Below are positions 27,862-33,433 of a stretch of DNA of 38,799 bases, in pieces. This DNA comes from Geobacter sp. (GTDB taxonomy: Bacteria; Desulfobacterota; Desulfuromonadia; Geobacterales; Pseudopelobacteraceae), in contig VFJM01000157.1 in assembly GCA_009886055.1 (NCBI GenBank), positions 1 through 38,799 on the forward strand, read 5' to 3'. The translations under genes and the position numbers were made by a program. Every line of letters starts with the position of its first letter. The first letter of the stretch is position 1. Below the pieces are notes generated by a model that worked only from the letters and a program-made list of their open reading frames with translations, ran no database searches and was not told the DNA's origin.

Positions 27862-28418
27862 CAGCTGAGCCTCCGGCGGATGTAGGAGTTGGCGAGCGAC
27901 CAGAGCGCCGCTCCGAGAAGGATCCAGGCGGCATTGAGTTTGAGAAATACCGATGCGCCGAAGGCAGCGAGTGCCATCAGGACGCCGACCCCCCCCTTGA
28001 TCTGCTTGCGTCCCATATCGATGGCGACCACGACGATCAGTCCGATGATCACCGGATTGGTCCCCTTGAGGGCGGCCTGCAGTTGTGGCAGCTTGTGGTA
28101 GGTAAAATAGATCCAGGAGAGCAGTGATACCAGCAGGAAGGAGGGGAGGATAAAGCCGATTGCTGCTATGATTCCCCCGCGGATGCCGCGCAGGTGGTGA
28201 CCGGTAAAGGTGCAGACGTTGAGCGAGAATGGCCCCAGAATCTGGCCGAAAGCCAGGCCGTGCAGAAACTCTTCCGACGTAATCCACCCCTTTTCACGGA
28301 CACAGGTCCGCTCCACCAGCGCCACAATGGCCATGCCGCCGCCAAAACCGGTCAGACCGATCATGGCAAAGGCAAGGAAAATATCGGTCAAACTGACCCT
28401 CTGTGCGCTGTCGCTCAT
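27861..28418 (-). CDS. Chromate transporter, first short-chain subunit (ChrA half)
   Basis: MSDSAQRVSLTDIFLAFAMIGLTGFGGGMAIVALVERTCVREKGWITSEEFLHGLAFGQILGPFSLNVCTFTGHHLRG. Confidence 0.88.
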   Translation of the reverse strand: MSDSAQRVSLTDIFLAFAMIGLTGFGGGMAIVALVERTCVREKGWITSEEFLHGLAFGQILGPFSLNVCTFTGHHLRGIRGGIIAAIGFILPSFLLVSLLSWIYFTYHKLPQLQAALKGTNPVIIGLIVVVAIDMGRKQIKGGVGVLMALAAFGASVFLKLNAAWILLGAALWSLANSYIRRRLS

Positions 28419-28803
28419 GCCGGATGTATAGCAGGAAGAGCGAGGCCGCGGCAAGGGGAAATGGCGGTGCGGCGCCTGGATAATGGTTTGCTGTTTAATT
28501 TGCTTTAACGATCTGAGAAAGTGTGGTAATGAAAATTATAAAATACTGTTTTTGCCTGGGATCGGAGGGAAGCCATGCTGAAGATGATGAAACGCAAACC
28601 CGCCACCGGGGCAGAATGACAAAGAGGCCCGCAGAGAAGTATGGAAATCGCTCATCTGCATACGGTATCGGGGGAATTCCGGGAACTTCCACAGAACATC
28701 CAGAACTCCCTGAACTACCTCAAAAAATCACCTCCATATCATCCAAAAATATGATAGATTGGCCGCACTCTTACGCAGAATAAACGAGCCGGGATACGGG
28801 AAA

Positions 28804-30735
28804 ATGATCAAGACTATACTCCAATTGATTATATCGTTGATTTCTTTAACAATCATTGGTTGTGCAGATAAAACCAGAGACAGCATCTTGCGGGGCGATG
28901 CGGGTATCGTGAACAGCAACTTCTGCGATGCCGTCACACACTACCGCACGGCCCTGGCGTTGTCCCCCGATCGTGCAAGGGACCAGAGATTCGACGCAAA
29001 CCTCCGGTACGCAAAAAAAGAATGTGCAAAGTCCCATTACAGGGAAGGGACGGAATATGCCGCCAAACAGCAGCTGGACGAAGCGGCAAATGCGTTCAAG
29101 AGCGCTCTGACTGTTGATCCAGACAACAAAAAGGCTCAGCAGGCGCTTGAGCAGACCCTCAACATCAAAGCTGACAACATTATGACCGCGGTTGATTGTT
29201 ATCAGGACGGGATGGCAACCGCCGCTAAAAAGGATTGGCGAAACGCCGTGAAACATTTTCAACGGGCGCTAACGGTCAACGCAAACCATCGTCAGACACA
29301 AGAACAGATCGACAGCGCTCTCCAGCAAATCAAGCGGGGTGACGAGATCTATAGCGCAGCCCTGGGGATGTTTGAAAAGAAGAAGTGGACGAATGCGGTC
29401 GGGGAATTTGGGAAAGTGCTGGCCATTGACCCCGCGCACCCGAACGCCCCTGATAAAATCCGGCTTGCCCAGGCCGAGATAGCGGGCGGACGGGATAACT
29501 TACTGAACGGAAAGAGTGCTCTCAAGCAGGATAACCGCCCGGAGGCAATCAAGTTTTTCAAAAAAGCCTTGCAGCAGGATGCCGAACAATCAGAGGCGCG
29601 CAGTGCGCTTGCAGACATCTATTACAGCATTGCCAGCGGACAGGCGGAAAAAGGGAATGCGGGGAACGCGGTTCTCTTTCACACGAAAGCACTCTCCTTG
29701 CAACCGAATCACAAAGGAGCCGGCGTAACGGTGACGACGCTTGAGGATGAAATCAGGCTGCGGATTTCCTGCAATCTGGCGTTGCTTCCACTCAGGGAGT
29801 ATTCGCGTGATCCGGAGCTGTCGAATGGATTATACACCGCCTTGAGAAACAAAATGCTGGCTAACGAGAATAGCTTTGTAAAAATTATCGATAACAAGCC
29901 GCTCGAAATGCTCGCGGAAGAGAAGGACATCCCTGTTGAAAAACTGAATGAAGGCAAAAATATCCATTTTTTAAAGGCATTGCCCAAGGTCAGCGCCGTC
30001 TTGACGGGAAAAATTGCCGCCTTTAAAATATCATCCGAGAAGAAAGCAGAAAATCTTTCAAAACAGTACCAGTCCGGGACGAATCGAGTCAAAAATCCGG
30101 AGTACGAAACCGCCGTGACAAATGCGCGTCACGCAAACGAGGCGGCTGAGGCCGCCAGGCGTGCGGCGGCACAGGTGGGAGGGGCGCTTGGCTTTCTCGG
30201 TAAAATGGTAAGTACCGTCACGGAGATCAACACAAGCATAGACGTGGCCAATACACCGGAATACATCGAAGAGCCGGTTTTCAGCACGTGGCGCTACAAG
30301 ATCAATCACCACAAGAAAAAAGCGAACATATCTGTGGCTTTCCGTCTTGTGGATACACAGACCGGTGAATTGCTCGCTGATGAGTCGATTCCTGCCCATG
30401 TCGAGTTCACCGCTGATTCCGTCGAGAATCCGAACCCGGAGATCGGCATTGAAGACAAACCGTTGCCCTTTGAGTCAGACGACGACCTGAAGAGCGCAGT
30501 TATTTCAAAGGCTACGGACCAGATCGCCGCCAAGCTCACCTTGACGTTGCAAAAATACGCAAGCAAGTATCTCCTCGCCGCAACGCGTTTCGATGCCACG
30601 GCCGACAGGATTCAGGCTGTTGAGAATTATATGAATTTTGTGTATGCCATTCCCAATGACAGCCCAACGTATGCAAACGAGCTCAAAAAGGTCAAGGAAT
30701 ATTTGGAGTCCGTTGACATCAACAATCAAATGTAA
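28804..30735 (+). CDS. TPR-repeat lipoprotein with CsgG/LpoB-like C-terminal region
   Basis: MIKTILQLIISLISLTIIGCADK lipobox; TPR-like helices (e.g. EGTEYAAKQQLDEAANAFKSALTVDPDNKKAQQAL, FEKKKWTNAVGEFGKVLAIDPAHPNAPDKI, QDNRPEAIKFFKKALQQDAEQSEARSAL); then LALLPLREYS...LTGKIAAFKIS...ISVAFRLVDTQTGELLADESI. Confidence 0.8.
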   Translation: MIKTILQLIISLISLTIIGCADKTRDSILRGDAGIVNSNFCDAVTHYRTALALSPDRARDQRFDANLRYAKKECAKSHYREGTEYAAKQQLDEAANAFKSALTVDPDNKKAQQALEQTLNIKADNIMTAVDCYQDGMATAAKKDWRNAVKHFQRALTVNANHRQTQEQIDSALQQIKRGDEIYSAALGMFEKKKWTNAVGEFGKVLAIDPAHPNAPDKIRLAQAEIAGGRDNLLNGKSALKQDNRPEAIKFFKKALQQDAEQSEARSALADIYYSIASGQAEKGNAGNAVLFHTKALSLQPNHKGAGVTVTTLEDEIRLRISCNLALLPLREYSRDPELSNGLYTALRNKMLANENSFVKIIDNKPLEMLAEEKDIPVEKLNEGKNIHFLKALPKVSAVLTGKIAAFKISSEKKAENLSKQYQSGTNRVKNPEYETAVTNARHANEAAEAARRAAAQVGGALGFLGKMVSTVTEINTSIDVANTPEYIEEPVFSTWRYKINHHKKKANISVAFRLVDTQTGELLADESIPAHVEFTADSVENPNPEIGIEDKPLPFESDDDLKSAVISKATDQIAAKLTLTLQKYASKYLLAATRFDATADRIQAVENYMNFVYAIPNDSPTYANELKKVKEYLESVDINNQM

Positions 30736-30758
30736 CGTTCGTTCACCAAGGAGAGATT

Positions 30759-32075
30759 ATGACCAGATTGAATTTATTCCGAGTTCTTATTGCAGTAATG
30801 GCATTCTGCACTTTCTGCCCTATGCAGGCGTATTCTCTTTCTTTTCCATGGTCAACTACTCCGATAAACAGAGAGATAACCTCGACTCCGGACGGAGCAG
30901 CGATCTATTACTCACTAAAAGAGGACGAACCAGGAACAAAGCTGGGAAATACACCCTTCAAAGACGTGATCAAGGACAGCAAAAAGTCCCCGGGCGGATA
31001 TTACCGGATCGAAATGGAGGGGTACAAACCAAAGACGATATTTGTGCCTAATCAGGAAAAACCTGCCGACATTAAACAGGATATCGAACTCCAGCCGATC
31101 ACGACGATTCGCCTTAAAGTCACTTCCAACCCGCCGGGAGCGGTGATTCTGTTTGGGAGGGACAAAAACAACATCACCAAGGAACTTGGTCCTGCGCCGT
31201 ATACTGAATCAAAAACAGACGCTGCTTCAGAACAGAAACCATACTGGGAAAAAGGTTTTTACAAGGCGCTTCTGAAGGGTTACCGCCCAAAAGTTATCGC
31301 CAGTGATCGAAGTGGGGAAAACAGGCAGATCAATTTCGAACTTGAGCCGCTCCCCCTGCCGCCTGAGCCGCCAAAGGCCGAGTATCCCGACAGGAAAACC
31401 GTCGCATGGAAACCTGTCAACCTGGATGCCTTCAAGAATCCGGACGTGGATCTTTCGTCAGGCCTTCCGTTGGCTGTCATGAATTTCAAGGGAAACAGCG
31501 CGCAGGAAATCGGGAGCCTGGTGGCTGATTCGCTCATACTTAAGCTGCAAAGAAAAGGTTTCGTGGTCATCGAGCGTGAACTCATTGAAAAGGCCATCAC
31601 TGACCTGAAAGGTACTGCATCTGCACCCGGAATCGAACTTATCAATAGCCTGAGCGCGCCTCTTAAAACACGCTATTTCATGATCGGTTCCATACACGAA
31701 TACGTCTCAGGCAATGAAAATGTCACCATTATTCCCTTCATACCCGACAGGGAGAAGGAACGGTATCAGAAGGAATATGATGCATATACGGCCTATTTCA
31801 AGGGAGAGAACATACCCAACCCACAACCTGTCAAAACCTTGCAGGAGTGGGAGCTTGAATTTAATGCCAAATTACAGACATTTTCCATGCCGATTGCCCG
31901 GGTAAGCATTACCGCAAAAATACTTGATGTTAAGAGCGGCAAGACGGTGTGGACCGGCATCGCCAACGTCTCTGAAAACGGGCTGCAGAGGGGTATGAAT
32001 ACAATACTGTCTGCCATGGCGGACAGCATTGCCGATCAGGGAGAAGGCAAGGCGGAGAATAAGAACAAACACTAG
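30759..32075 (+). CDS. Exported protein with two PEGA-like domains and a CsgG/TolB-N-like C-terminal domain
   Basis: N-terminal hydrophobic export signal; ITSTPDGAAIYYSL...GNTPFKDVI...YYRIEMEGYKPKTIFV and LKVTSNPPGAVILFGRDK...GPAPYTES...FYKALLKGYRPKVI; then LPLAVMNFKGNSAQEIGSLVADSLILKLQRKGFVVIERELIEKAI...ARVSITAKILDVKSGKTVWTG. SD AAGGAGAG. Confidence 0.8.
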   Translation: MTRLNLFRVLIAVMAFCTFCPMQAYSLSFPWSTTPINREITSTPDGAAIYYSLKEDEPGTKLGNTPFKDVIKDSKKSPGGYYRIEMEGYKPKTIFVPNQEKPADIKQDIELQPITTIRLKVTSNPPGAVILFGRDKNNITKELGPAPYTESKTDAASEQKPYWEKGFYKALLKGYRPKVIASDRSGENRQINFELEPLPLPPEPPKAEYPDRKTVAWKPVNLDAFKNPDVDLSSGLPLAVMNFKGNSAQEIGSLVADSLILKLQRKGFVVIERELIEKAITDLKGTASAPGIELINSLSAPLKTRYFMIGSIHEYVSGNENVTIIPFIPDREKERYQKEYDAYTAYFKGENIPNPQPVKTLQEWELEFNAKLQTFSMPIARVSITAKILDVKSGKTVWTGIANVSENGLQRGMNTILSAMADSIADQGEGKAENKNKH

Positions 32076-32155
32076 AAAGCATACAAGTTTCCGAATTCAT
32101 GATTTGAGTTTTGGAGACCACTTCAGAATTTTCCGTACCTTATTATTTCATGATA

Positions 32156-32276
32156 TTCCCCTGAATACTGGTCCGGTTTTCAGGGGAAGATCCCAACAGC
32201 AATGGGCTACAGGCATAACTTGTAGCCCATTGCTGTTGGGAAGAATTCAGGGGACTACTTTTTGTACCAGGGAGTA
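32156..32276. repeat. Compound palindromic element (two hairpins plus TTCAGGGGA repeat), REP/RAYT- or IS200/IS605-like non-autonomous candidate
   Basis: Hairpin 1 TTCCCCTGAA (32156-32165) / TTCAGGGGAA (32179-32188). Hairpin 2 TCCCAACAGCAATGGGCTACA (32191-32211) / TGTAGCCCATTGCTGTTGGGA (32221-32241), perfect 21 bp. Then GAATTCAGGGGACTACTTTTTGTACCAGGGA. Confidence 0.75.
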
Positions 32277-32284
32277 ATTGCATA

Positions 32285-33433
32285 ATGATCGCCGAAAAAA
32301 CACCCTTGAACGACATCATCGCCGCACGCATACAACAACAGGGGCGCATCACCTTTGCCGACTTCATGGCGGCCTGCCTCTACGAACCGGGTCTAGGCTA
32401 CTACACCTCTCCGGGGCGCAAAGTCGGCGCCGAGGGGGATTTTTACACCAGCATCACCGTGCATGCCGCCTTCGGGCGTGTGGTCGCCCGCGAGATCGCC
32501 CAGATGTGGCGCGGCATGGGGGCACCCGCCGCTTTTACCCTGGTGGAGTGCGGGGCCGGCAATGGTCGTCTGGCGTGCGACATCATGGATTTTCTGGCGG
32601 AGCGCGAGCCGGTGATGTACCAAAGCCTGCGTCTGCGGCTGGTAGAGCAGGAGCCTTCTCTCGAATCGGCGCAGCGCGAGATGCTTGCCTCCCACAGCAA
32701 CCGGCTTTCCTGGCTGTCACCGGATGAATTTGCTTCAGGGAGTTTCACCTTCAGCGGCTGCCTCTACTCCAATGAACTTATCGATGCGCTGCCAACCCAT
32801 CGGGTAGTAATGACCGCCGAAGGGGTGAGGGAGGTGTACGTCACCCTGAATGATGGCGAGTTCGCCGAAGAGGCGGGGGTACCATCGACGCCGGAGATTG
32901 AAGCATATCTGAAGCGCGTCGCCGTGAAGCTCCATCCCGGCCAGCAGGCCGAAGTCAACCTGAACGCTCCGAAATGGCTGGCAGCGGCATCAAAAGCGCT
33001 CAAGCAGGGCTTCATCCTGACGATCGATTACGGGCTTGCTGCGCCCGAACTCTACACGCCGCGGCGCAAGCTGGGGACACTGCTCTGTTATTACCGCCAT
33101 CAGATCGAGGAGAATCCCTACCTCCGCCCGGGGCTGCAGGACATCACCTCCCACGTCGACTTCACGACGCTGATGAAGCGCGGAGAAGAGCTGGGGCTGC
33201 AGAACGTCTGGTTCGGGGAACAGTACCGTTTCCTCCTCTCCGCCGGCATCATCGAGGAGATTGAAGATATTGAGCGTTCTCCCAGAACTGACGAGGAGAA
33301 GCTCCGGCTCCGTTTGACCCTCAAAAAGCTGATCCTGCCCGAAGGGGGGATGGGGGACACCTTCAGGGTGCTGATCCAGTCCAGGGGAGTAGATGCTCCC
33401 AGTCTGCTCTGCCAGCGCAGGATCGGAGGGTAA
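32285..33433 (+). CDS. SAM-dependent methyltransferase, MidA/NDUFAF7 (DUF185-type) family
   Basis: ITFADFMAACLYEPGLGYYTSPGRKVGAEGDFYTSITVHAAFGRVVAREIAQMW, LVECGAGNGRLACDIMDFL, ILTIDYGLAAPELYTPRRKLGTLLCYYRH. Confidence 0.9.
   Translation: MIAEKTPLNDIIAARIQQQGRITFADFMAACLYEPGLGYYTSPGRKVGAEGDFYTSITVHAAFGRVVAREIAQMWRGMGAPAAFTLVECGAGNGRLACDIMDFLAEREPVMYQSLRLRLVEQEPSLESAQREMLASHSNRLSWLSPDEFASGSFTFSGCLYSNELIDALPTHRVVMTAEGVREVYVTLNDGEFAEEAGVPSTPEIEAYLKRVAVKLHPGQQAEVNLNAPKWLAAASKALKQGFILTIDYGLAAPELYTPRRKLGTLLCYYRHQIEENPYLRPGLQDITSHVDFTTLMKRGEELGLQNVWFGEQYRFLLSAGIIEEIEDIERSPRTDEEKLRLRLTLKKLILPEGGMGDTFRVLIQSRGVDAPSLLCQRRIGG

Follow-up and report, generated by a model that had tools for sequence, protein, structure and literature searches.

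Periplasmic proteins of the CsgG superfamily are well known. The Escherichia coli curli channel CsgG has two amphipathic transmembrane hairpins, and GNA1162-like proteins, LpoB and PelC are lipoproteins. TraC of Myxococcus (MXAN_0804), a lipoprotein of about 600 amino acids with TPRs, is predicted to reside in the outer membrane and localises to the envelope; it is required for efficient outer membrane exchange and affects the levels and function of TraAB, and its C-terminal domain has been called uncharacterised (PMC8546572).

The window analysed here, a stretch of 38,799 nucleotides from Geobacter sp. (contig VFJM01000157.1), encodes two adjoining proteins which resemble these systems in part. 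The product of gene 1 is like CsgG in its domain fold and like TraC in being a lipoprotein of similar length with TPRs and a homologous C-terminal domain. In place of the two CsgG hairpins, however, its model shows a single long arm that has a helical tip and one hydrophilic strand, and unlike TraC, to whose equivalog cut-off it does not come near, it is accompanied by a gene for a PEGA-CsgG partner. The C-terminal domain of that partner, gene 2, finds its best sequence and structure matches in the GNA1162-like, LpoB and PelC lipoproteins, from which the protein differs by lacking a lipobox, by two PEGA-like repeats and by an insertion of roughly 50 residues. No account of TPR-CsgG or PEGA-CsgG proteins turned up in full-text searches of the open-licence literature with the term sets used.

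Results

Open reading frames and their translations place both genes side by side on the forward strand, where they fill a low-GC segment of 3.8 kb. Gene 1 (28804..30735, +) encodes a TPR plus CsgG-type lipoprotein of 643 amino acids and gene 2 (30759..32075, +) an exported PEGA plus CsgG-type protein of 438 amino acids; two neighbouring same-strand genes had been called in an earlier sequence-only reading of this DNA. The gap of 23 nt between them contains the ribosome-binding site of gene 2, AAGGAGAG (30748..30755, +), as read from the sequence. Consensus promoters upstream of the pair did not exceed chance, and no tandem repeats were found. A review that connects c-di-GMP/glycine tandem riboswitches with csgG prompted us to consider riboswitch control, which was rejected: no Rfam family matches the window, and eight related loci gave only two tRNAs.

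The gene 1 product starts with the lipoprotein signal MIKTILQLIISLISLTIIGC, a signal peptide with lipobox (LTIIGC, Cys20; 28804..28863, +) recognised in the translation, of which G19 and C20 are invariant across 20 relatives. About eight TPRs (TPR_1, E 1.9e-17) form a solenoid in residues 23-321 (28870..29766, +) according to profile matches and the AlphaFold model, which bears out the proposed lipoprotein with serial TPRs. A CsgG/TolB-N-type domain follows in residues 322-541 (29767..30426, +), supported by the model, by the TraC match described below and by Pfam CsgG (PF03783), against which it scores 27.3 bits, above the gathering cut-off of 20.8; together with a confident model this upholds the CsgG-type domain suspected in gene 1. 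The AlphaFold model (pLDDT 87, pTM 0.56; 20 relatives as input) runs from the TPR solenoid through an alpha/beta domain, whose two-stranded arm is exceptionally long (residues 398-430 and 487-517, with a helical hairpin tip at 432-483; 29995..30354, +), to C-terminal helices. Since Foldseek matched the whole model to TPR proteins only, the evidence for the fold of its second half is the Pfam match plus homology. Pfam LpoB is matched by two members of the gene 1 alignment.

Among named families, gene 1 comes closest to NCBIfam NF040658 (TraC), with 62.6 bits where the equivalog cut-off is 500. TraC residues 18-131 match the start of the TPR region and residues 442-568 the C-terminal domain, where the matching part of gene 1 comprises residues 483-610; gene 1 thus encodes a lipoprotein whose TPRs and TraC-type C-terminal domain are arranged as in TraC itself. 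As the TraC cut-off is missed, the relation is, as judged by sequence comparison, one of homologous parts and not of family membership. C-terminal halves alone matched TraC in all six TPR-CsgG proteins tried (E 1.4e-7 to 2.9e-3), and the TraC C-terminal domain (about residues 440-569) therefore appears to be a CsgG-superfamily domain, which would tie a domain hitherto uncharacterised to this superfamily.

Gene 2 encodes a signal peptide ending in AxA-type sites, and a lipobox is found in none of the four orthologues. Two PEGA-like units follow, in residues 36-112 (30864..31094, +; profile score and internal repeat) and 114-200 (31098..31358, +; internal repeat). The units match each other with an hhalign probability of 91% (E 1.2e-6), against 0.1% in the control comparison with the C-terminal domain, and agree with the two PEGA-like repeats read earlier in this exported protein; the Pfam PEGA score (PF08308) is sub-threshold in the one orthologue concerned, that of genome G037 (17.3 against a cut-off of 20.8), while the internal repeat and a sequence motif speak for PEGA. 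For residues 235-425 (31461..32033, +), a CsgG/GNA1162-type domain was assigned from profile comparison, Foldseek and Pfam. The gene 2 C-terminal profile aligns with the CsgG part of the gene 1 family at 94% (E 1e-7); two further profiles compared by hhalign reached about 1%. The AlphaFold model, built from four sequences, is poor (pLDDT 44), and its top solved structures in Foldseek are GNA1162 (E 7e-4), CsgG, HpaA, LpoB, PelC, FlgT and TolB; being all of one kind, these matches support the assignment of a CsgG-type domain to the predicted structure without deciding it. Pfam scores stay below their cut-offs both for GNA1162-like in gene 2 (PF05643; 21.8 against 25.9) and for CsgG in the G037 orthologue (18.3 against 20.8). 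The CsgG/LpoB/TolB-N pattern proposed for gene 2 was accordingly right in kind, by hhalign and Foldseek, and falls short of the Pfam thresholds.

The pair occupies an inserted low-GC segment (28485..32262), delimited by loss of synteny with relatives and by GC content, which is 0.491 compared with 0.591 +/- 0.013 in 111 flank windows of the same size. On the left, the syntenic block (DinG-type helicase, chromate transporter) stops at 28388-28484, and on the right another (methyltransferase onward) begins at 32263-32340. The blocks are not neighbours in relatives; in G019 about 100 kb of one contig separates them. The gene pair therefore sits at a junction, which may be a chimeric assembly join. 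Neighbours checked were a two-component pair, the DinG-type helicase, chromate transporter halves, the methyltransferase, HAD, a pseudouridine synthase, a Deg-type protease and an M48 peptidase; curli, lpo/mrc and tol-pal genes are absent among them, as the earlier reading had stated. Palindrome search and folding located, at the insert's right edge, two adjoining hairpins with 10-bp and 23-bp stems (32156..32241; folding z = -9.6), one with perfect 21-nt arms at 32191-32241 and a second at 32156-32188, which presumably resemble palindromes of REP/IS200-type elements; GAATTCAGGGGACTAC comes after them. A search of the own genome for this palindrome returned only itself and its reverse-strand match. 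Carriage by phages or plasmids was considered and rejected: gene 2 relatives are absent from the viral contigs searched, PHROGs and PADLOC gave nothing weighty, and neither protein nor DNA matched the plasmids searched.

Gene 2 orthologues of significant length occur in 4 of 117 relatives, and about 85,000 species genomes, scanned with conserved patterns, yielded the same three other holders: two Geobacteraceae MAGs and Geomesophilobacter sediminis Red875, which carries the G113 locus. In G019 and G113 gene 2 has gene 1 immediately before it, and the order of the two is kept in three of the four genomes, all four loci having different surroundings. In G037, a genome 88% complete, an intact gene 2 directly follows a 36-codon remnant of gene 1 (L039:558-665), a deletion scar adjoined by a tadA-like gene; the locus may be decaying, or gene 2 may function there by itself. 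The co-occurrence expected of the pair is thus seen as adjacency at three loci and as a gene 1 stub at the fourth. Where measurable, dN/dS is 0.11-0.14 in both genes. GC content of the pair genes is 0.41-0.44 in G019 and G037, within regions of 0.46, and 0.63 in G113. The A/T-rich patch and the palindrome at its right edge, both noted before, are real features of the window, and the suggested accessory cassette fits the low GC and the sporadic, insert-like distribution.

Relatives of gene 1 are less rare than the pair itself. A colinear TPR-CsgG lipoprotein, 19-21% identical overall, is present in 20 of the 117 relatives, and a 395-genome sample of the phylum added more than 20 other genomes with strong matches (E below 1e-25), mostly open frames of 626-707 amino acids. 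Of 24 other loci examined, 19 (L041-L049, L192-L201) have a CsgG+fn3 protein right behind the TPR-CsgG lipoprotein (9/9 Geobacterales loci and 10/15 more distant ones), and at 18 of these 19 the lipoprotein is preceded by a protein that has a CsgG domain, a FlgT_N domain or both, such as a FlgT-like protein with FlgT_N at E 1e-11. This three-gene core module is conserved across Desulfobacterota and apparently undescribed. A small exported protein often comes after the module, which in Geobacteraceae has a fixed site between recA-pilT-recX and alaS.

The core module resembles the window pair in having a full-length colinear homologue of gene 1 and, behind it, a second CsgG-domain protein that bears beta-sandwich repeats, but it comprises three genes, with fn3 instead of PEGA and a reversed domain order; its three genes in order are not seen at the window pair, where the TPR-CsgG homologue is the only counterpart. 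A tree of the C-terminal halves separates the gene 1 clade on a long branch. The pair looks like a rare, laterally moved variant of this conserved module. Neither the core lipoprotein nor the CsgG part of the fn3 partner was found in the four pair-bearing genomes. Replacement of the module by the pair is not claimed, since the lack of a genome with both is statistically uninformative (chance P = 0.47).

Discussion

A reading for which we see even chances is that the pair constitutes an outer-membrane-anchored periplasmic scaffold or an assembly and stability factor, forming a hetero-oligomer through its CsgG-type domains. What we infer about sorting to the outer membrane, the physical complex, its client and its role can be put as follows. 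Expressed from one operon, gene 1 would yield a TPR lipoprotein presumably anchored in the outer membrane, a location suggested by the lipobox, and gene 2 a soluble periplasmic PEGA protein. The CsgG/TolB-N-superfamily domains would probably join the two on the periplasmic side of the outer membrane. A client protein might be bound by the TPR solenoid, and a bridge to the cell wall or other components of the envelope could be formed by the long beta arm together with the PEGA repeats. Like TraC or LpoB, such a complex would act on surface or envelope proteins; it would not form a secretion pore. In favour of this reading are the TPRs and above-threshold CsgG domain of gene 1 with its confident model, the profile and structure matches of the gene 2 C-terminal domain, the gene order kept at different sites, the low dN/dS and the relation to TraC; the recurrence at 19 other loci of a TPR-CsgG lipoprotein with a second CsgG-domain protein behind it lends co-assembly indirect support. 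The long branch of gene 1 with its 19-21% identity, the poorly modelled gene 2 and the gene 1 stub in G037 speak against the scaffold.

An export pore had been among the functions suggested earlier. The Pfam CsgG match of gene 1, the presence of CsgG among the structural matches of gene 2 and the very long beta hairpin arm, whose strand 2 has a distal hydrophobic face of 0.78, would all suit a secretion channel in which a CsgG ring inserts its arms as a barrel and gene 2 serves as periplasmic gate or specificity factor. The distal part of strand 1, taken like strand 2 from the predicted model, is however hydrophilic, its best face reaching -0.31 with 7 of 20 residues charged, compared with 0.48-0.56 in the transmembrane hairpins of E. 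coli CsgG used as control. Each chain, moreover, has one arm and not two hairpins, and ends it in a 50-residue helical hairpin, unlike CsgG, while csgA/B/E/F-type genes are absent among the neighbours checked. With neither amphipathic transmembrane hairpins in the predicted model nor linked curli genes, the pore becomes less likely, and we regard it as quite improbable. An LpoB-like activator or a FlgT/FlgO-type component of a flagellar or peptidoglycan-linked ring, placing wall enzymes or motor parts, is rather unlikely. The Foldseek matches of gene 2 to LpoB, FlgT and PelC, the FlgT-like protein of the core module and the LpoB matches within the gene 1 alignment point to it, but genes for penicillin-binding proteins or flagella are absent near the pair, and rarity and unrelated insertion sites are not what a motor part would show.

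That the genes encode two independent envelope proteins travelling together, their adjacency reflecting co-transfer, would agree with only four known loci and with the intact gene 2 that outlasted gene 1 in G037. The pairing of a TPR-CsgG lipoprotein with a second CsgG protein nevertheless recurs at the 19 core-module loci, and purifying selection is similar on both genes, which makes independence unlikely. Returning to the scaffold, the pair and the core module offer a testable place to seek binding partners of TraC-like lipoproteins. As a long shot, TraC-like lipoproteins with a CsgG-fold C-terminus could be the mobile half of a general two-component machine for outer-membrane remodelling or surface-protein assembly, with specificity set by a CsgG plus PEGA/fn3 partner and the window pair being a horizontally traded specificity variant.

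Two observations on related proteins may be added. A CsgG protein of the core module (L041:10434-11621) matches the Leptospira LipL46 model at E 4.7e-22, below the cut-off of that model, and a caspase-domain (Peptidase_C14) lipoprotein-like protein of a same-genus genome (L097:7067-8686) is weakly similar to PEGA-like unit 2 of gene 2.
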